From NCBI RefSeq assembly GCF_000211855.2, contig NC_015638.1, positions 1,116,001 through 1,180,000 of the forward strand: a stretch of DNA of 64,000 bases. Direction: 5' to 3'. This DNA is from Lacinutrix sp. 5H-3-7-4 (GTDB lineage Bacteria > Bacteroidota > Bacteroidia > Flavobacteriales > Flavobacteriaceae). The first letter of the stretch is position 1; every line of letters begins with the position of its first letter. Below the pieces are notes generated by a model. It did no database searches, was not told where the DNA came from, and was given only the letters and a program-made list of their open reading frames with translations. The translations under genes were made by a program, and so were the position numbers. Shown piece by piece: positions 9,143-59,945 of the stretch.

Positions 9143-9273
9143 ACTTTTTAAGTTAATTTGACCAAAACGGTTCAAAAATCGTCCAAAAATGGCAAAATTT
9201 TAATGAATTTAATCATTTATTGCCAATAATAATGCAAATTAAGTTCTTTTTAACGTATAGAAAAATATATCAT

Positions 9274-9301
9274 AAAAAAAACGCCCACAAGTGAGCGTTT
9301 T
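9274..9301 (-). terminator. terminator after rpmF
   Basis: On the minus strand, AAAACGCTCA pairs with the GGGCGTTTT arm (one mismatch) and is followed by a run of eight T. It lies 20 bases after the rpmF stop and upstream of fabH, so the yceD-rpmF transcript probably ends here at least in part. Confidence 0.7.
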
Positions 9302-9321
9302 CTGTATGCATGCATAGTAAA

Positions 9322-9525
9322 TTATGCTATATTTTCTTCTGCTACAGCGTTGTCAATTAATACTTGACCTCTGTAATAAAGTTTACCTTCAAACCAGTGT
9401 GCTCTGTGATATAAGTGAGGCTCACCTGTTGTTGGGCAAGTTGCAACTTGTGGCGCAGTTGCTTTATAATGTGTTCTTCTCTTATCTCTTCTTGTTTTAG
9501 AGATTTTTCTTTTAGGATGTGCCAT
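9322..9525 (-). CDS. rpmF: 50S ribosomal protein L32
   Basis: Small basic ribosomal protein of the large subunit. The N-terminus [19 protein letters not shown] is diagnostic. There is a single Cys (in [17 protein letters not shown]), so the two CxxC pairs of the zinc-binding form are missing and this is the zinc-independent variant. At 67 aa it is slightly longer than the usual 56-60 residues, because of a C-terminal tail ([12 protein letters not shown]). It lies 9 bases after yceD, the conserved yceD-rpmF pair found in most bacteria. Confidence 0.97.
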
Positions 9526-9534
9526 TTTATTTTT

Positions 9535-45156: not shown

Positions 45157-47361
45157 TTAAGCTTCAGTTTTAGCTTTTCCTATTAATTCAAAATCTAGGT
45201 GACGTTTTACTAAATCGGCTTGTTTTACTTTTACAATAACCTCGTCTCCAAGTTGATACATTATTTTTGTTTCGCGACCTATTAATGTAAATTGGTCTTG
45301 ATCAAACTCATAATAATCGCCTTTTATATCTCTGGTTCTTACCATGCCTTCACATTTATTTGAAATAATTTCTACATAAATTCCCCAATCTGTTACGCCA
45401 GAAATTACACCTCTAAATTCTTCATCTTGATGGTCTTGCATGAAACGAATTTGCATGTATTTTATAGAATCTCTTTCGGCTTTTGTTGCTAGATATTCCA
45501 TAGTACTAGAATGTTTACATTTTTCTTCGTAAACTTCTTCATTTGCCGATTTTTCTCCATCTAAATACCTTTGTAATAAACGGTGTGCCATGACATCTGG
45601 ATAACGACGTATTGGCGAAGTAAAATGGCTATAATAGTCGAAAGCTAAACCATAATGTCCAATATTATGTGTTGTATACTCTGCTTTAGACATGGTTCTA
45701 ATTGCTAAAGTATCTACTAAATTTTGCTCTTTTTTACCTTGTACATCAACCAATAATTTATTTAATGATTGCGATACATTGCCTTTATTAAAGTTTAATT
45801 TATGACCAAATTTTGCGACAACACCTTGTAATGCTGCTAGTTTACTTTCGTCTGGTTCATCGTGTACACGATATACAAATGTTTTTTCTGGTTTTTGTTT
45901 TCCAACAAATTCTGAAACTTTTCTATTTGCTAATAACATAAATTCTTCAATTAATTTATTAGCATCTTTACTGGTTTTAAAAAATACACCTACTGGATTT
46001 GCATCTTCGTCTAAATTAAATTTTACTTCAACTTTATCAAAAGAAATAGCTCCAGAACGCATACGTTTACTACGCATAATTTTTGCAAGTTCGTCCATTT
46101 TTAAAACAGCATCTGCAATGGCTTGATCTGTTTTATATTCTTTTCCTGTTAAAGAGACATTGGCTGGAATGGTATTGTTTTTATTTTCTATAATGGCTTG
46201 TGCTTCTTCGTAAGCAAAACGGGCATCAGAGTAAGTTACTGTTCTACCAAACCATTCGTTTTTAATTTGTGCTTTATTATCTAATTCAAAAACAGCTGAG
46301 AATGTATATTTTTCTTCATGCGGACGTAATGAACATGCACCATTACTTAAAATTTCTGGTAACATTGGTACAACTCTATCTACTAAATAAACAGAGGTTG
46401 CACGCTCGTAAGCTTCATCGTCTAAAACGGTTCCTTCTTGTAAATAATGTGAAACGTCTGCAATATGTATTCCTATTTCGTAATTTCCGTTTTCTAAAAC
46501 TGTAAAAGATAAAGCATCATCAAAATCTTTAGCATCTTTAGGGTCTATGGTAAAGGTTAAATCTTTACGCATATCTCGACGCTTTTTAATTTCTTCAGGT
46601 TGTATTTTTAAGTCTATATTATTTGCATAATCTTCAACTTCTTTAGGAAACTCGTATGGTAAACCATAATCTGCTAAAATGGCGTGAATTTCGGTATTAT
46701 GTTCTCCAGCTTTACCTAAAACTTTTAAAACTTTTCCGTTAGGAGAATCGGCTTTTTCTGGCCAATCTTCTAGTGTTACTAATACTTTATCACCATCTTG
46801 GGCTTTTAATGTTTTGTTAATAGGTACAAAAATGTCTTTGTTCATTTTATTACCATCAACCACTACAAAAGCATAGTTATTTTTTGGGTGTATTTGTATT
46901 ATACCAACGTAATCTGTTTTCGCACGCTCAATAATATTTGTTATTTCACCTTCAAGTTTACCGCGTTTTCTTCTTTTGTAAACATATAATTCTACTTCAT
47001 CGCCGTTTAGCGCTTTGTTTACATTATTTGAAGCTATGTATATATCTTCATCAAAATCATCGCAAATAACGTATCCAGATCCTCTTGAAGAGGCATCAAA
47101 AATTCCTGTATGATATTCTGTATTGTTTATAATTTGAAATTTACCGCGATCTATCTCCTTTATTTCTTCTTTAGCTTTAAGTTGTGCTAATTTTTTTATT
47201 ATCTGGTTACGGCTACTAGCATCGTTAACGCCTAGTTTAGCAGCAATTTGTTTATAATTAAAGGTTTTATTTCTATCTTTTTTTAAAATACTTAGAATTG
47301 TATTTGTTAGGTTGGAAATCTTGTTATGACTTGGTTTCCTTTTCTTTTTATTTTTTGTCAT
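45157..47361 (-). CDS. rnr: ribonuclease R
   Basis: Processive 3'-5' exoribonuclease of the RNB family, able to unwind structured RNA. The protein (734 aa) begins with a short basic tail and a winged-helix domain (KDRNKTFNYKQIAAKLG). Cold-shock domains follow from about 85. The RNB domain contains FTIDPKDAKDFDDALSF (the catalytic Asp cluster), HIADVSHYLQEGTVLDDEAYERATSVYL and DRVVPMLPEILSNGACSL. A C-terminal S1 domain (EEFRGVISGVTDWGIYVEI) ends with a short charged tail. It is the first gene left of the proposed replication origin. Confidence 0.98.
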   Translation of the reverse strand: MTKNKKKRKPSHNKISNLTNTILSILKKDRNKTFNYKQIAAKLGVNDASSRNQIIKKLAQLKAKEEIKEIDRGKFQIINNTEYHTGIFDASSRGSGYVICDDFDEDIYIASNNVNKALNGDEVELYVYKRRKRGKLEGEITNIIERAKTDYVGIIQIHPKNNYAFVVVDGNKMNKDIFVPINKTLKAQDGDKVLVTLEDWPEKADSPNGKVLKVLGKAGEHNTEIHAILADYGLPYEFPKEVEDYANNIDLKIQPEEIKKRRDMRKDLTFTIDPKDAKDFDDALSFTVLENGNYEIGIHIADVSHYLQEGTVLDDEAYERATSVYLVDRVVPMLPEILSNGACSLRPHEEKYTFSAVFELDNKAQIKNEWFGRTVTYSDARFAYEEAQAIIENKNNTIPANVSLTGKEYKTDQAIADAVLKMDELAKIMRSKRMRSGAISFDKVEVKFNLDEDANPVGVFFKTSKDANKLIEEFMLLANRKVSEFVGKQKPEKTFVYRVHDEPDESKLAALQGVVAKFGHKLNFNKGNVSQSLNKLLVDVQGKKEQNLVDTLAIRTMSKAEYTTHNIGHYGLAFDYYSHFTSPIRRYPDVMAHRLLQRYLDGEKSANEEVYEEKCKHSSTMEYLATKAERDSIKYMQIRFMQDHQDEEFRGVISGVTDWGIYVEIISNKCEGMVRTRDIKGDYYEFDQDQFTLIGRETKIMYQLGDEVIVKVKQADLVKRHLDFELIGKAKTEA

Positions 47362-47460
47362 TTAATTTGTAATCTATTGAATTTCTAAGTTACGAAGTAA
47401 AAGTTTGAAATTCGGTTATTTTTTAACTTAATAGCGAGGAGTGAAGTAATTAAGTTTATA

Positions 47461-47468
47461 CAAAGCTA
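47461..47468 (-). promoter_or_regulatory. -7 box for rnr
   Basis: The minus strand reads TAGCTTTG, an exact TAnnTTTG match, 99 bases upstream of the rnr ATG. No TTG -33 was seen at the expected spacing. Confidence 0.4.
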
Positions 47469-47519
47469 CGTTTTTATTATTAAATGTATGTGTCTTTAAG
47501 TTTAAGTTAACTAAAACAG

Positions 47520-47528
47520 TTATCCACA
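47520..47528 (+). other. DnaA box, perfect consensus
   Basis: TTATCCACA matches the high-affinity DnaA box consensus exactly and is preceded by CAG. It lies 158 bases from the rnr start, inside the large gap. Confidence 0.6.
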
Positions 47529-47657
47529 TTTATATTATATACTATTATTCTTTCTTTTAAAATTTAAAAAAAAAATACTGATTATTATTGCTTGTTAATA
47601 GCGGTATAACTTTTTTAGTATTTTGTTTGGTATGTTACTTTTCTGTTTCTACTAACA

Positions 47658-47725
47658 GGTTATAAACAATATAAAGTGTTGGTTTTTATTATATTTATAT
47701 ATTCTATTAACAACTGTTTATAACC
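47658..47725. repeat. inverted pair of DnaA-like boxes
   Basis: GGTTATAAACA (47658-47668) and its exact reverse complement TGTTTATAACC (47715-47725) form an 11-bp perfect inverted repeat 46 bases apart. Each contains TTATAAACA, two changes from the DnaA box. The pair might be a DnaA-binding element or an unrelated operator. Confidence 0.5.
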
Positions 47726-48183
47726 AATGTTGACAGCTTATTTTTAATAAGTATTTTTATTTTTTGTGTTGGTATATGAAAATTTAATAGTGATAAATTG
47801 GCCAAAAATAAATGCTAACTTTTTTGGTAGTGTAGTTTTAATTCTTGTTTTAAAAATTTATTTAATAATCCTAATAAAAGTTTTCAAAAACTATGAGTAG
47901 ATATTAACAAGTAGTTATAATTAATTTACCTAGTTGTTAACATCGTATACATTTTTAATTAAAAACAGATTAATTTTAAGTGTAAAGTAGCTTATTAAGT
48001 ATAGTAAAAATAGGAGCTAAGCTATATTTTTAAATGGGCTAAATTTTAATTTTTTAAATGTAGTTTATTTGAATAAGTTAGTACTTATTACTTATTAATA
48101 GTTGCGAGCAATTATTAACTTTACACTTTTAATATACAAACAACTATTTTTCGCTTACGCGGAAATAAAAAACTACTACTATA

Positions 48184-48612
48184 ATGACTATCTCAATTGG
48201 AAATGACCACGCTGGAACAGATTATAAATTTGAAATTATTAAACACTTAGAAAATAAAGGTTATACAGTTATAAACCATGGTACCGATACTTTAGAAAGT
48301 GTTGATTATCCAGATTTTGTACATCCTGTTGCTAAAGATGTAGAATATAATAAAGCCACATTTGGTATTTTAATATGTGGTAGTGCAAATGGTGTTGCAA
48401 TGACTGCTAATAAGCATACTCATATTAGAGCAGGAGTTTGCTGGACTAAAGAAATTACAGAGTTAACAAGACAACACAATAATGCTAACGTTATTTGTAT
48501 TCCAGCACGTTACACTGCAGTACAACAAGCTATAGCGATGGTAGATACCTTTTTAGAAACTAAATTTGAAGGCGGAAGACACCAAAACCGTGTTGATAAA
48601 ATACCTTGTTAA
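48184..48612 (+). CDS. rpiB: ribose-5-phosphate isomerase B
   Basis: Isomerase of the pentose-phosphate pathway (ribose-5-P and ribulose-5-P), RpiB family. The 142-aa protein starts MTISIGNDHAGTDYKFEI. LICGSANGVAMTANK contains the active-site Cys and the Gly-rich phosphate loop, and GVCWTKEITELTRQHNNANVICIPARYT is the conserved C-terminal half. The TTG-started CDF gene follows with no gap, so the two are probably co-translated. Confidence 0.96.
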   Translation: MTISIGNDHAGTDYKFEIIKHLENKGYTVINHGTDTLESVDYPDFVHPVAKDVEYNKATFGILICGSANGVAMTANKHTHIRAGVCWTKEITELTRQHNNANVICIPARYTAVQQAIAMVDTFLETKFEGGRHQNRVDKIPC

Positions 48613-50848: not shown

Positions 50849-52498
50849 TTAGTTTAGGTATTTTCTATATCTTGAAGTATTGTTAAGTATTTCGGTAGCT
50901 TTTTTAATTTCGGCATTGTGTATTTTATAATAGTCATATAAACCTTCTCTATACACATAACGTTTAATAATCTCGTCGCTTAAGAGACTCATTAATTGCG
51001 ATTTATTTTCGTCTATTGCTTTTAATTTTGAATTATTTAAATTTTCAATTAAAGCATTGTAATCTCTTTTTATATCTTCATCTAAATTTTCGGTTTTAGC
51101 AATTTCTGCAGCTTTAGCGAAAGATTTTTCGGTTTCGGTTTCAAAAGAAAAACCTGTTTTCTTTAAATAATTTTTAAAGTTTATAAAATCGGCATCGGTT
51201 AATTTCCACTTGTTTATATCTTCAATATTTGGATGCATGTAATAGTATTTTGTTGCATAATCAAACACGCTTTGGTTGTTTAAAATTGCAGTTGTAATGG
51301 CAGAATTTTTAGAATAATCTAAAGCTTCGTCTGGTACAACGCCACCACCATCAAATACTTTTCTACCATTTCTGGTTTTAAAAGCATTATAATCTTTTTG
51401 TTTTACTCGTACAGCATTTCCTTTTTCGTCTTTATTCCAGTAATCTAATGCTTGTATACAGCGTCCAGAAGGTGTATAGTATCTAGATATTGTTACTTTT
51501 AATTGTGTACCATATGTTAGTTTTTTTGGGCGTTGTACTAAGCCTTTACCAAAACTTCTTGCTCCTACAATTACACCTCGATCTAAATCTTGTAAAGTTC
51601 CAGATACAATTTCACTGGCCGATGCACTACGACCATTTATTAGCACAACAACTGGAATTTCTGTATCTATTGGATCTCTTTTTGTGTAATATGTACGGTT
51701 GTATTTTTTTACTTTAGATTTTGTAGTTACTACTAATTGACCTTTTGGTACAAATAAGTTAACAACATTTACGGCTTCACTTAATAAACCACCAGGATTA
51801 CTACGTAAGTCTAAAATTATACTTTTTGCGCCTTGTGCTTTTAAGTCTTTTAAAGCATAACCAGTTTGTTGTGAGGCTTTTTCGTTAAATTTTTTTAAAA
51901 CAATATAACCTGTAGTTTCGTTTACCATAGAGAAGTGTGGTACGGCATCTATTTCAATTTCACTTCTTTTTATTGTTGTGCTACTTTTTTTGCCTTGTCT
52001 AATATAAGTGACTTTAGTTGATGAGTTTGGTGTGCCTTTTAAAAGGTTTCCGGCATCATCTTTATAATCTGCTACGTTTTGTCCATCTACATTTATAATT
52101 TCGTCTCCAGCTTTTAATCCTGCTTTATCTGCAGGATAACCTTTGTAAGGTTCTATAACTAGTAATCTATCTTTAAGTGTTTTTATACTGGCTCCAATAC
52201 CAGTATAATCTCCAGTACGTTTTATACGTTCTGCCTCAACATCTTGCTCATTATAAAATTGTGTATAAGGATCTAACTCATTTAGCATATTTTTAATGGC
52301 ATTATCCATTAAATCTGCTGGATTAGTTTCATCTACATAATTCATATTTAACTCTTTAAAAAGCGTAGTAAATATTTCTATTTGCTTAGCAATTTCAAAA
52401 AAGTTATTGTTTGCTGTTTTAAAAGCTGTTCCTGTAAATAGTATAGCAATAGCAAATATTGGTATTAATATTTTGCGTTTTAAAATGGTCTTCATCAT
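50849..52498 (-). CDS. S41-family C-terminal processing protease
   Basis: A 549-aa periplasmic serine protease of the CtpA/Prc type. Residues 1-25 are a signal or anchor helix. A PDZ domain (about 85-170, with TGIGASIKTLKDRLLVIEPYKGYPADKAGLKAGDEI) selects the substrate tail. The S41 core has GAKSIILDLRSNPGGLLSEAVN, GRSASASEIVSGTLQDL (nucleophilic Ser inside SASASE, 291-296) and GARSFGKGLVQ (general base Lys318). It starts with ATGATGAAG and overlaps rnpA by ATGA, so the two are translationally linked. Target proteins are unknown. Confidence 0.95.
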   Translation of the reverse strand: MMKTILKRKILIPIFAIAILFTGTAFKTANNNFFEIAKQIEIFTTLFKELNMNYVDETNPADLMDNAIKNMLNELDPYTQFYNEQDVEAERIKRTGDYTGIGASIKTLKDRLLVIEPYKGYPADKAGLKAGDEIINVDGQNVADYKDDAGNLLKGTPNSSTKVTYIRQGKKSSTTIKRSEIEIDAVPHFSMVNETTGYIVLKKFNEKASQQTGYALKDLKAQGAKSIILDLRSNPGGLLSEAVNVVNLFVPKGQLVVTTKSKVKKYNRTYYTKRDPIDTEIPVVVLINGRSASASEIVSGTLQDLDRGVIVGARSFGKGLVQRPKKLTYGTQLKVTISRYYTPSGRCIQALDYWNKDEKGNAVRVKQKDYNAFKTRNGRKVFDGGGVVPDEALDYSKNSAITTAILNNQSVFDYATKYYYMHPNIEDINKWKLTDADFINFKNYLKKTGFSFETETEKSFAKAAEIAKTENLDEDIKRDYNALIENLNNSKLKAIDENKSQLMSLLSDEIIKRYVYREGLYDYYKIHNAEIKKATEILNNTSRYRKYLN

Positions 52499-52866
52499 TC
52501 TTTTACTTTAGAATTTTGGTCATTAAATTTAGTAAAAAGCGTTTTAACTTTAGAGTTAATAAGGTTAAAATCTGGCATTTCTTTATTATTATATAATATC
52601 ATAAACGAAAAACCTTCTATGTTGTTGTCTTTTAAAAACGTTTTGTTTAGCCTGTAAGCTTCACGTAATAAGCGTTTAATTCTTATTCTATCTACTGCAA
52701 GTTTAAAATTTCTTTTACTTACAGATACACCTACTTTATTAGTTTTTTCGTTTTTTAAATAGACCAATCGCAAAGGCCATGCCGAAACACTTTTTCCTTT
52801 AAGGAAAAGCGCTTCAATCTCTTTTTTACTTTTTAGTTTTTCGGTTTTATTATAAGTAAGCTTCAT
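52495..52866 (-). CDS. rnpA: ribonuclease P protein component
   Basis: Protein cofactor of RNase P, which matures the 5' ends of tRNAs. The 123-aa protein is basic, with GVSVSKRNFKLAVDRIRIKRLLREAYR holding the family's RNA-binding helix. The position normally Asn in the RNR motif is Ile61 here (R60-I61-R62). It lies between the LexA-like gene (1-base overlap, TAATG) and the S41 protease gene (4-base overlap), not beside rpmH as in most bacteria. Usual rnpA-area neighbours dnaA, rpmH and yidC are absent. Confidence 0.9.
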   Translation of the reverse strand: MKLTYNKTEKLKSKKEIEALFLKGKSVSAWPLRLVYLKNEKTNKVGVSVSKRNFKLAVDRIRIKRLLREAYRLNKTFLKDNNIEGFSFMILYNNKEMPDFNLINSKVKTLFTKFNDQNSKVKE

Positions 52867-57893: not shown

Positions 57894-57909
57894 TGTTCCA
57901 CGTGGAACA
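57894..57909. other. parS: parS-like centromere site 1
   Basis: TGTTCCACGTGGAACA is a perfect 16-bp palindrome and fits the bacterial parS consensus TGTTnCACGTGnAACA bound by ParB. It lies 157 bases upstream of mnmG. ParA/ParB genes are not in the window. Confidence 0.78.
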
Positions 57910-57958
57910 GTATGTTTAATATTGAATAAATTTGTTTTTTATGTGAAATGTTTTTAAA

Positions 57959-57974
57959 TGTTTCACGTGGAACA
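57959..57974. other. parS: parS-like centromere site 2
   Basis: TGTTTCACGTGGAACA, one base from a perfect palindrome and matching the parS consensus, 65 bp from site 1 in the same gap. Confidence 0.78.
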
Positions 57975-58050
57975 TGTAAAATAATTAATAAAAATCATTT
58001 AATCTATTAACTATATTATAGATTAAATTTAATATAAAGTATTTAAAATT

Positions 58051-59922
58051 ATGTTTAACGAAGTATACGATGTTATAGTGGTTGGAGCAGGACATGCAGG
58101 AAGTGAAGCTGCTGCTGCTGCTGCAAATATGGGTTCTAAAACCTTGCTTATAACAATGAATTTACAAAACATTGCGCAAATGTCTTGTAATCCTGCTATG
58201 GGCGGAATTGCTAAAGGACAAATAGTTCGCGAGATTGATGCGCTTGGTGGGTACTCTGGTATTGTAAGTGATACTTCTGCTATACAATTTAAAATGCTTA
58301 ACAAATCTAAAGGTCCTGCAATGTGGTCACCAAGAGTACAAAGTGACCGTATGCGTTTTGCAGAAGATTGGAGGTTGCTTTTAGAGCAAACTCAAAATCT
58401 TGATTTTTATCAGGAAATGGTATCTGGCTTGGTGGTTGAAAATGGTAAAGTTGTAGGTGTAAAAACTTCTTTAGGAATCACAGTAAAAGCTAAATCTGTA
58501 GTATTAACTAATGGTACTTTTTTAAATGGTTTAATACATATTGGAGATAAAAATTTTGGTGGAGGTAGAGCAGGAGAAAGAGCAGCTACAGGAATTACAG
58601 AACAACTTATAGAATTAGGATTTGAATCTGGTAGAATGAAAACAGGAACACCACCAAGAGTAGATGGTCGTTCTCTAGATTATTCTAAAATGATTGAACA
58701 ACCTGGAGATTTAAATCCAGAAAAGTTTTCTTATTTAGATACAACAAAACCATTAGAAAATCAGCGTTCTTGTTTTATGACTTATACAAGCGAAAAAGTT
58801 CACGATTTATTACGTGAAGGTTTCGATCGCTCACCAATGTTTAATGGTAGAATTAAAAGTTTAGGACCAAGATATTGTCCTTCGATAGAAGATAAAATTA
58901 ACCGTTTTGCAGATAAAGATAGACATCAATTATTTGTAGAACCAGAAGGTTGGAATACTGTAGAAATGTATATAAATGGATTTTCAACTTCATTGCCAGA
59001 AGATGTTCAATTTAATGCATTACGATCTGTAGCAGGTTTTGAGAATGTAAAATTCTTTAGACCTGGTTATGCGATTGAGTACGATTATTTTCCGCCAACA
59101 CAATTAAAACATACTCTAGAAACTAAGTTAGTTGATGGCTTATATTTCGCAGGTCAAATTAATGGTACAACTGGTTATGAAGAAGCAGCTTCTCAAGGAT
59201 TAATGGCTGGTATAAATGCTGCTTTAAAAGTGCAAGAAAAAGATTCATTTATATTACAACGTAATGAAGCTTATATTGGTGTTCTTATAGACGATTTAAT
59301 TACCAAAGGTACAGAAGAACCTTATAGAATGTTTACTTCTCGTGCAGAATATAGAACACTTTTAAGACAAGATAATGCAGATATTAGATTAACACCAAGA
59401 GGTTACGATTTAGGTTTAGCTAGTGAAAAACGTTTAAAAAGAATGGAGGAGAAGCTTAATGCTTCAAATCAATTTGTACAGTTTTTTAAAGACACTAGTG
59501 TAACGGCTAATGATGCTAATGTGGTTTTAGAATCTAAAAATTCTGCATCAGTTAAACAGCAAGGTAAGATGTTTAAATTATTTGCAAGACCAAATATTGA
59601 TATGGATGATATGCGTAAATTTGAAAAAGTTGAAACATATATTCAAGAAAATAATCTTGACAGAGAAGTTTTAGAACAAGCAGAAATTCAAGTTAAATAC
59701 GCTGGTTATATTTCTAAAGAAAAAAATAATGCTGATAAATTAAACCGACTTGAGAATATTAAAATTCCAGCTAATTTTAATTACTCACAGTTAAAATCTA
59801 TGAGTTTAGAAGCAAGAGAAAAATTAAATAAAATTCAACCAGTTACTATTTCCCAAGCATCAAGAATTAGTGGTGTATCACCTGCAGATATTTCTGTGCT
59901 TTTAGTTTTTATGGGAAGATAA
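58051..59922 (+). CDS. mnmG: tRNA uridine-5-carboxymethylaminomethyl modification enzyme
   Basis: FAD enzyme (GidA) that with MnmE modifies the wobble uridine of several tRNAs. It begins MFNEVYDVIVVGAGHAGSEAAAAAANMG (Rossmann FAD loop), then NLQNIAQMSCNPAMGGIAKGQIVREIDALGG with the folate/FAD-site Cys and Gly. LFVEPEGWNTVEMYINGFSTSLPEDVQ and GQINGTTGYEEAASQGLMAG are family signatures. 623 aa is normal. mnmG is often close to oriC, and here parS-like sites flank it on both sides. Confidence 0.98.
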   Translation: MFNEVYDVIVVGAGHAGSEAAAAAANMGSKTLLITMNLQNIAQMSCNPAMGGIAKGQIVREIDALGGYSGIVSDTSAIQFKMLNKSKGPAMWSPRVQSDRMRFAEDWRLLLEQTQNLDFYQEMVSGLVVENGKVVGVKTSLGITVKAKSVVLTNGTFLNGLIHIGDKNFGGGRAGERAATGITEQLIELGFESGRMKTGTPPRVDGRSLDYSKMIEQPGDLNPEKFSYLDTTKPLENQRSCFMTYTSEKVHDLLREGFDRSPMFNGRIKSLGPRYCPSIEDKINRFADKDRHQLFVEPEGWNTVEMYINGFSTSLPEDVQFNALRSVAGFENVKFFRPGYAIEYDYFPPTQLKHTLETKLVDGLYFAGQINGTTGYEEAASQGLMAGINAALKVQEKDSFILQRNEAYIGVLIDDLITKGTEEPYRMFTSRAEYRTLLRQDNADIRLTPRGYDLGLASEKRLKRMEEKLNASNQFVQFFKDTSVTANDANVVLESKNSASVKQQGKMFKLFARPNIDMDDMRKFEKVETYIQENNLDREVLEQAEIQVKYAGYISKEKNNADKLNRLENIKIPANFNYSQLKSMSLEAREKLNKIQPVTISQASRISGVSPADISVLLVFMGR

Positions 59923-59929
59923 ATTTAAG

Positions 59930-59945
59930 TGTTCCACGTGGAACG
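59930..59945. other. parS: parS-like centromere site 3
   Basis: TGTTCCACGTGGAACG matches the 16-bp parS consensus at 15 positions and is 7 bases after the mnmG stop. Three sites within 2.1 kb form a cluster, as ParB loading sites usually do. Confidence 0.75.

Follow-up and report, generated by a model that had tools for sequence, protein, structure and literature searches.

A conserved noncoding core between rnr and rpiB as the probable chromosomal origin of Lacinutrix sp. 5H-3-7-4, away from dnaA and mnmG

Replication origins of Bacteroidota are usually predicted from nucleotide skew combined with indicator genes, and a long intergenic gap in Lacinutrix sp. 5H-3-7-4 raises the question of whether the origin of such a chromosome can be placed by its own sequence. 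The gap separates rnr from rpiB (Table 1) and lies in the window analyzed here, a stretch of 64,000 nucleotides corresponding to positions 1116001-1180000 of a chromosome assembled as a single contig of 3,296,168 bp. A preliminary description of the window had singled out this gene-free, strongly AT-rich interval of 822 bases between divergent genes as a candidate oriC, and the gap (47362-48183) indeed has 20.9% GC, its longest open stretch across all six frames being 49 codons. The exact DnaA box attributed to it is found (TTATCCACA, 47520-47528), as is the inverted pair of DnaA-like boxes (TTATAAACA, at 47660 on the forward and 47715 on the reverse strand), and the genes that had been placed 5-12 kb away, rnpA and mnmG, lie 4 to 12 kb from the gap, with parS sites to the right as described. 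The three parS sites at 57895-59944 are the whole genome's set at up to one mismatch and form a cluster 10-12 kb from the gap. We conclude that the rnr-rpiB gap is very probably the chromosomal origin, because a conserved core within it sits at the skew switch, has one match in the chromosome and is preferred by change-point fits in relatives. This computational support bears out the candidate, yet the boxes and oriC-associated genes that had suggested it, while present, are the weakest parts of the case.

GC skew was sampled in 40 stretches of 20 kb (800 of 3,296 kb) and cumulated along the chromosome. The minimum falls in the sampled stretch 1148001-1168000, which contains the gap, and the maximum in the sampled stretch at 2.71 Mb; skew turns from plus to minus at about 2.784-2.836 Mb, where the antipode of the core (2.812 Mb) also falls. 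Raw GC skew, followed without breaks over 184 kb of the same genome, bottoms out at window position 47169, 342 bp from the core. For GC skew, the check named in the preliminary description, for which a minimum elsewhere was the adverse outcome, came out in favor of the gap at both scales. The core coincides with the asymmetry switch to within a few kilobases: over those 184 kb, the minimum for AT, purine and keto disparities is at window position 54.1 kb, 6 kb off and between the core and mnmG, and the strand-adjusted best place described below is 4 kb off. Skew also switches at or near the core in two other single-contig genomes that were sampled coarsely. A search of the Lacinutrix genome for a dif consensus with up to three mismatches gave no match, which is not evidence of its absence.

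Alignment of the gap to three members of the genus recovers 396-470 bases at 77-81% identity, and of 15 further intergenic gaps in the window, only two of which exceed 400 bp, none aligns so in all three. A genus alignment over 47511-47946 takes in nine of ten genomes (Lacinutrix sp. 5H-3-7-4 included) with long invariant blocks, and further conserved blocks occur beyond this core near each gene, at about 47455-47490 and 48068-48130. The gene neighborhood is itself widespread: rpiB is present in 57 of 60 genomes, this one included, and rnr is divergent within 1.5 kb of it in 21 of 30 fetched loci. The best matches of the Rnr search come from Lacinutrix and Bizionia (88-90% identity), and among 80 named Rnr loci rpiB is found in 65, always divergent from rnr and across a gap of 270-3775 bp, five of the 15 loci without rpiB ending no more than about 200 bp from the start of rnr. 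A scan of 110 loci (80 named, of 581 candidates, and 30 unnamed) with a profile of the core yielded 87 matches at E ≤ 1e-6, or 82 once near-identical rows were removed; the alignment used below, A1, comprises 59 sequences picked by coverage and identity. A sequence-only model of 219 positions for the first half of the core, R1, has one match in the Lacinutrix chromosome (1.8e-27, the next being 0.33, and hence a single match at E below 0.3). The same model matches 42 of the 60 genomes, again counting this one: 34 of 37 in the family and eight spread over six further families of its order, with three family genomes (G012, G013 and G029) giving no R1 match. Each of the 42 carries the core in one place, the second match in G020 and G036 being an overlapping one on the opposite strand.

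The distance from the core to rpiB is at most 2 kb in 36 of the 42 genomes, 2.8 kb in G011 and 23 kb in G007; in G023, G037, G043 and G051 the two are on different contigs. Together with an exact parS the core occupies one contig, within 37.6 kb, in 26 of the 30 genomes having both. It is tied to neither neighboring gene alone. Extra DNA of about 1.4-1.8 kb separates it from rnr in five loci (L082, L086, L087, L088 and L113). Three others keep the core next to rnr, with rpiB at a distance of 1.3-3 kb in L079 and L081 and not found within the locus in L078. Relative to the core, the mnmG/parS block lies toward rpiB in the Lacinutrix genome, G008 and G007, and toward rnr in the genus members G001, G003, G005 and G006 and also in G022; this difference of side therefore points to an inversion near the origin that flipped the block.

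The elements of the core are collected in Table 1. The first box divides evenly at its sixth position, C in one half and A in the other, as the 47 aligned sequences with TTATNNACA comprise 24 with TTATNCACA and 23 with TTATNAACA. Beside it, in a core of 20% GC, lies a conserved A/T block that is predicted to act as the unwinding element, and a weak DnaA-trio-like run (CTA TTA TTC TTT CTT TTA) begins 13 nt past the 47520 box, its trio score of 3.48 of 6 against 2.78 for simulated sequence (54 of 59 rows) representing a slight excess. The box at 47660 is retained in part of the genus and is weaker across the family. By themselves the box counts are weak and scarcely above chance, and it is conservation and chromosomal position that carry the origin case. 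The window holds four occurrences of TTATNCACA against 4.9 expected, and TTWTCCACA occurs at 39 scattered places genome-wide. Compared with 500 simulated sequences, the gap contains five sites within one mismatch of TTATNCACA (1.5 expected, p 0.012), three exact TTATNNACA (0.57, p 0.018) and 17 with one mismatch (11.5, p 0.08), which amounts to a box cluster at p 0.012-0.018 with the looser patterns not significant. For the core alone the corresponding figures are three (1.1 simulated, p 0.105), three (0.46, p 0.009) and ten (7.0, p 0.17); a count of ten one-mismatch sites is also reached by 11 of 305 other windows of low GC.

Table 1. Features of the rnr-rpiB gap and its surroundings, in window coordinates
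Feature	Position	Strand	Basis
rnr, ribonuclease R, left neighbor of gap	45157..47361	-	TIGR02063, 723 bits
Conserved noncoding core, probable oriC, ~436 bp	47511..47946	+	profile match, E 7e-112 in own 184-kb region
DnaA box TTATCCACA, first core element	47520..47528	+	TTATNNACA in 47/59 aligned sequences
AT-rich stretch, putative duplex-unwinding element	47529..47582	+	sequence; TTTAAAATTTAAAAAAAAA block conserved
Reverse DnaA-like box CTATTAACA (TGTTAATAG on +)	47593..47601	-	TGTTNATA in 46/59, TGTNNATA in 53/59 rows
DnaA-like box TTATAAACA, left arm of the inverted pair of the preliminary description	47660..47668	+	sequence
DnaA-like box CTATTAACA, closely inverted to the 47715 box	47704..47712	+	TATTAACA in 26/59, [AG]TNAACA in 47/59 rows
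DnaA-like box TTATAAACA (TGTTTATAA on +)	47715..47723	-	TGTTNATAA in 32/59, TGTTNANAA in 43/59 rows
DnaA-like box ATATTAACA	47901..47909	+	TATTAACAA at ≥80% among the 28-45 rows reaching there
DnaA-like box TTGTTAACA	47934..47942	+	TTAACA at ≥80% among rows reaching there (28 at the block's left end)
rpiB, ribose-5-phosphate isomerase B, right neighbor of gap	48184..48612	+	TIGR01120, 146 bits, above cut-off
rnpA	52495..52866	-	TIGR00188, 52 bits, above cut-off
parS GTTCCACGTGGAAC	57895..57908		genome-wide parS search
parS, one mismatch	57960..57973		genome-wide parS search
mnmG, parS sites on both flanks	58051..59922	+	TIGR00136, 862 bits
parS GTTCCACGTGGAAC	59931..59944		genome-wide parS search

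The closest competitor for the origin is mnmG itself, with oriC beside that gene (57.4-60 kb) and the rnr-rpiB gap being something else. PMC11278836 and PMC12843772 report Ori-Finder placements of oriC at or next to mnmG in two other Flavobacteriaceae (in the text of PMC11278836 oriC is next to mnmG and ter next to leuB, and the figure legend swaps the names); in our window parS sites flank the gene, and the AT, purine and keto disparities bottom out between both candidates. Ori-Finder scoring, though, includes lineage-specific indicator genes besides skew and boxes. Moreover, the 207-bp gap before mnmG aligns over 62-67 bases in three genus members, compared with the 396-470 bases given above for the rnr-rpiB gap, which has, however, four times its length. 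To compare the two places directly, we fitted a skew change point to third codon positions with gene strand as a covariate in 12 regions of 12 genomes, hand-picked rather than random for long contigs and mostly a large rpiB-parS distance, with two genomes of displaced core added; G029 was considered and left out, and a thirteenth region, contig C17 of G043 with rnr and rpiB and no core, served as a comparison. The strand covariate was used because raw cumulative minima fall 9-30 kb off the core in 8 of 11 relatives, and places were judged by a threshold of 1.92 quasi-likelihood units, on scores that compare change-point places with one another.

By this rule nine of the 12 regions admit the core, and the Lacinutrix genome (G000, 5.2 units), G005 (2.7) and G022 (3.5) exclude it, favoring a place 4-5 kb away on its rnr side. 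With G015 as the one exception, at 12.8 kb, every region has its adjusted best place 0.3-6.4 kb from the core; the fit intervals are wide in G005, G028 and G043. The same fits speak against a skew switch at mnmG: the gene stays within 1.92 units in a single region, that of G007 (1.56), and is rejected in the other 11 of 12, its better end falling short by 7.5-47 units in seven regions and its only scored end by 2.9-10.6 in four. The unadjusted minima of the 11 other genomes come within 0.7 kb of the core in G010, G019 and G043, and the eight that fall off it all lie on its far side from mnmG. The exact place of the switch in relatives thus depends on strand adjustment, but because both analyses run against mnmG, the core is preferred over that gene with or without it, and an origin beside mnmG appears very improbable.

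Two natural rearrangements make it possible to ask whether rnr, rpiB, mnmG or the core itself marks the origin. In G043, which belongs to another family, the core and the parS/mnmG block lie 8 kb apart on contig C25, and rnr and rpiB are on C17. The fit for C25 (25 ORFs, wide interval of 2.5-22.4 kb) finds its best place 0.5 kb from the core, where the skew changes sign, with mnmG 2.9 units worse. On C17 the fit puts a step of equal size beside rnr and rpiB; here skew is positive on both sides of the step, and all four scored 5-kb steps are positive. In G007, a member of the genus, the full core is inverted and 23 kb from rpiB, and the change point falls 2.4 kb from the moved core, with rpiB 3.5 units worse and mnmG within the limit; the raw minimum, at 40.8 kb, is nearer rpiB (34.2) than the core (56.9). 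This genome carries both the full inverted core and a partial copy (C1:213895-214053 and 236908-237332), the copy beside rpiB covering profile positions 263-433, outside the range of R1, a pattern such as might be left by an inversion or transposition that copied part of the origin. That the fit follows the displaced core in G043 and G007 is suggestive, not decisive.

The remaining explanations concern what else the gap might be, or where else the origin might lie. Both rnr and rpiB start in the gap, which could then be only a long divergent promoter or leader region; the blocks at about 47455-47490 and 48068-48130 may be promoters, and the core keeps close company with rpiB in most genomes that have it. 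Against this, the core persists when extra DNA parts it from rnr or rpiB, is placed elsewhere in G007 and G043, and accompanies a skew switch that promoters leave unexplained, and we consider a purely promoter-like function to be highly unlikely. A long conserved noncoding block could equally be a gene for a structured RNA, but RNAalifold, run on the plus strand of the first half of the core with 59 sequences, returns zero consensus pairs at an energy of 0, and the gap, in which the core has 20% GC, is without an Rfam match; a structured-RNA reading of the core was dropped on these grounds and has next to no probability left. Hardly more credible is an origin next to dnaA, by which base 1 of the record would be right, dnaA starting within the record's first bases. 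On either side of dnaA the sampled skew is about 0.02-0.03, turning negative farther out with no lasting switch, and the last 600 bp before the gene hold one exact TTATNNACA, at the far end, and four with one mismatch. In addition, PMC4755523 describes the oriC of Bacteroidetes as commonly distant from dnaA; the remark in the preliminary description that oriC is often not next to dnaA agrees with this source and with our chromosome, where dnaA lies 1.16 Mb from the gap.

With the rnr-rpiB core as the origin, initiation would follow the DnaA-dependent route. DnaA, encoded 1.16 Mb away, would bind the forward box TTATCCACA (47520) together with the reverse and inverted boxes between 47593 and 47723, and its filament would open the adjacent AT-rich stretch (47529-47582), at which the helicase would be loaded. 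Two forks would then depart in opposite directions past rnr and rpiB toward a terminus near 2.8 Mb, and ParB bound at parS around mnmG would segregate the new origins. The chromosome's own DnaA (475 aa) is a full-length homolog of initiators with solved structures (8btg 1.9e-102, 1j1v 5.7e-17), and its gene occupies the first 1.5 kb of the contig (G000:C1). The signature helix in the C-terminal part of this protein reads GKRDHATV, against GGRDHTTV in 8btg, and the change from C to A at position 6 of the box may go with it.

DnaA-type origins, such as those of Escherichia coli and Bacillus subtilis, are intergenic, AT-rich, single in each chromosome and located at the skew minimum, with a DnaA box beside an AT-rich stretch, more boxes in both directions and parS within tens of kilobases. 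The core resembles them in all of these general features and differs in not being next to dnaA and in its boxes, since 23 of 47 conserved first boxes are TTATNAACA and the inner ones are mostly TATTAACA-like, rather than TTATNCACA. That the locus is of this known kind is well supported by computation; its useful part is the conserved core and its position away from both dnaA and mnmG. As to the basal unwinding system, which has repeated trinucleotides of the 3'-GAT-5' type (DnaA-trios) near a DnaA box, the spacer data in PMC8287927 peak at 10-13 bp between DnaA box and DnaA-trio, and the trio-like run of the core, at 13 bp, is inside that peak; in contrast to the tandem pair of B. subtilis, the core has one clear box before the run, and its trio excess over simulated sequence is slight. 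The Ori-Finder origins described in PMC11278836 and PMC12843772 are likewise away from dnaA and in the neighborhood of mnmG, but they are set at that gene, whereas the rnr-rpiB core is 10 kb from the mnmG/parS block in the Lacinutrix genome. The predicted oriC of Elizabethkingia meningoseptica is described in PMC8994065 as 649 bp with three DnaA boxes (at most one mismatch) and AT-rich elements, and by that description it is like the core in its boxes, its AT-richness and its distance from dnaA. In the open PMC literature we found no origin reported at rnr-rpiB; DoriC, supplements and subscription papers lie outside that search and may record one.

To what extent the core reaches beyond the family was assessed in a class sample of 80 genomes, including Lacinutrix sp. 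5H-3-7-4, one member of the family and one of the order. R1 matches 28 of them and exact parS occurs in 25, with both in ten; 15 of the 25 parS-bearing genomes have no core match. The two features share one contig within 20 kb in eight of the ten, and in six of eight outside the family, at distances of 10 kb in the Lacinutrix genome, 18 in G120, 8 in G060, 5 in G061, 1 in G075, 6 in G098 (for the weaker of two matches), 5 in G105 and 20 in G131; for G080 and G122, which complete the ten, the assembly runs to more than 300 contigs. Outside the family the core matches have modest E-values, from 6e-4 to 5e-11, and G096, G098 and G102 have two matches each. These matches suggest, at the level of sequence, that the core extends into other orders. 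We give even chances to the broader proposal that a homologous core with an altered box, TTAT[C/T][A/C]ACA, persists recognizably throughout Flavobacteriales and in further orders of Bacteroidia, as a portable element that has shifted from one gene neighborhood to another and carried the replication switch with it. If true, origins could be found by core sequence, and placements at mnmG based on indicator genes could be corrected. The core, about 430 bases long, appears to identify the same origin in many related bacteria, and it gives origin plasmids, DnaA footprinting and metagenomic estimates of growth rate a target defined to the base.

Two minor observations concern other noncoding parts of the window. 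The gap between listed ORFs at 9176-9534 shares 91% identity over 311 bp with the G005 region and has no counterpart in the fetched G003 and G007 regions, perhaps reflecting a mis-set gene start. A Flavo-1 RNA (Rfam RF01705) is located at 668-740 on the reverse strand, with a score over the gathering threshold.
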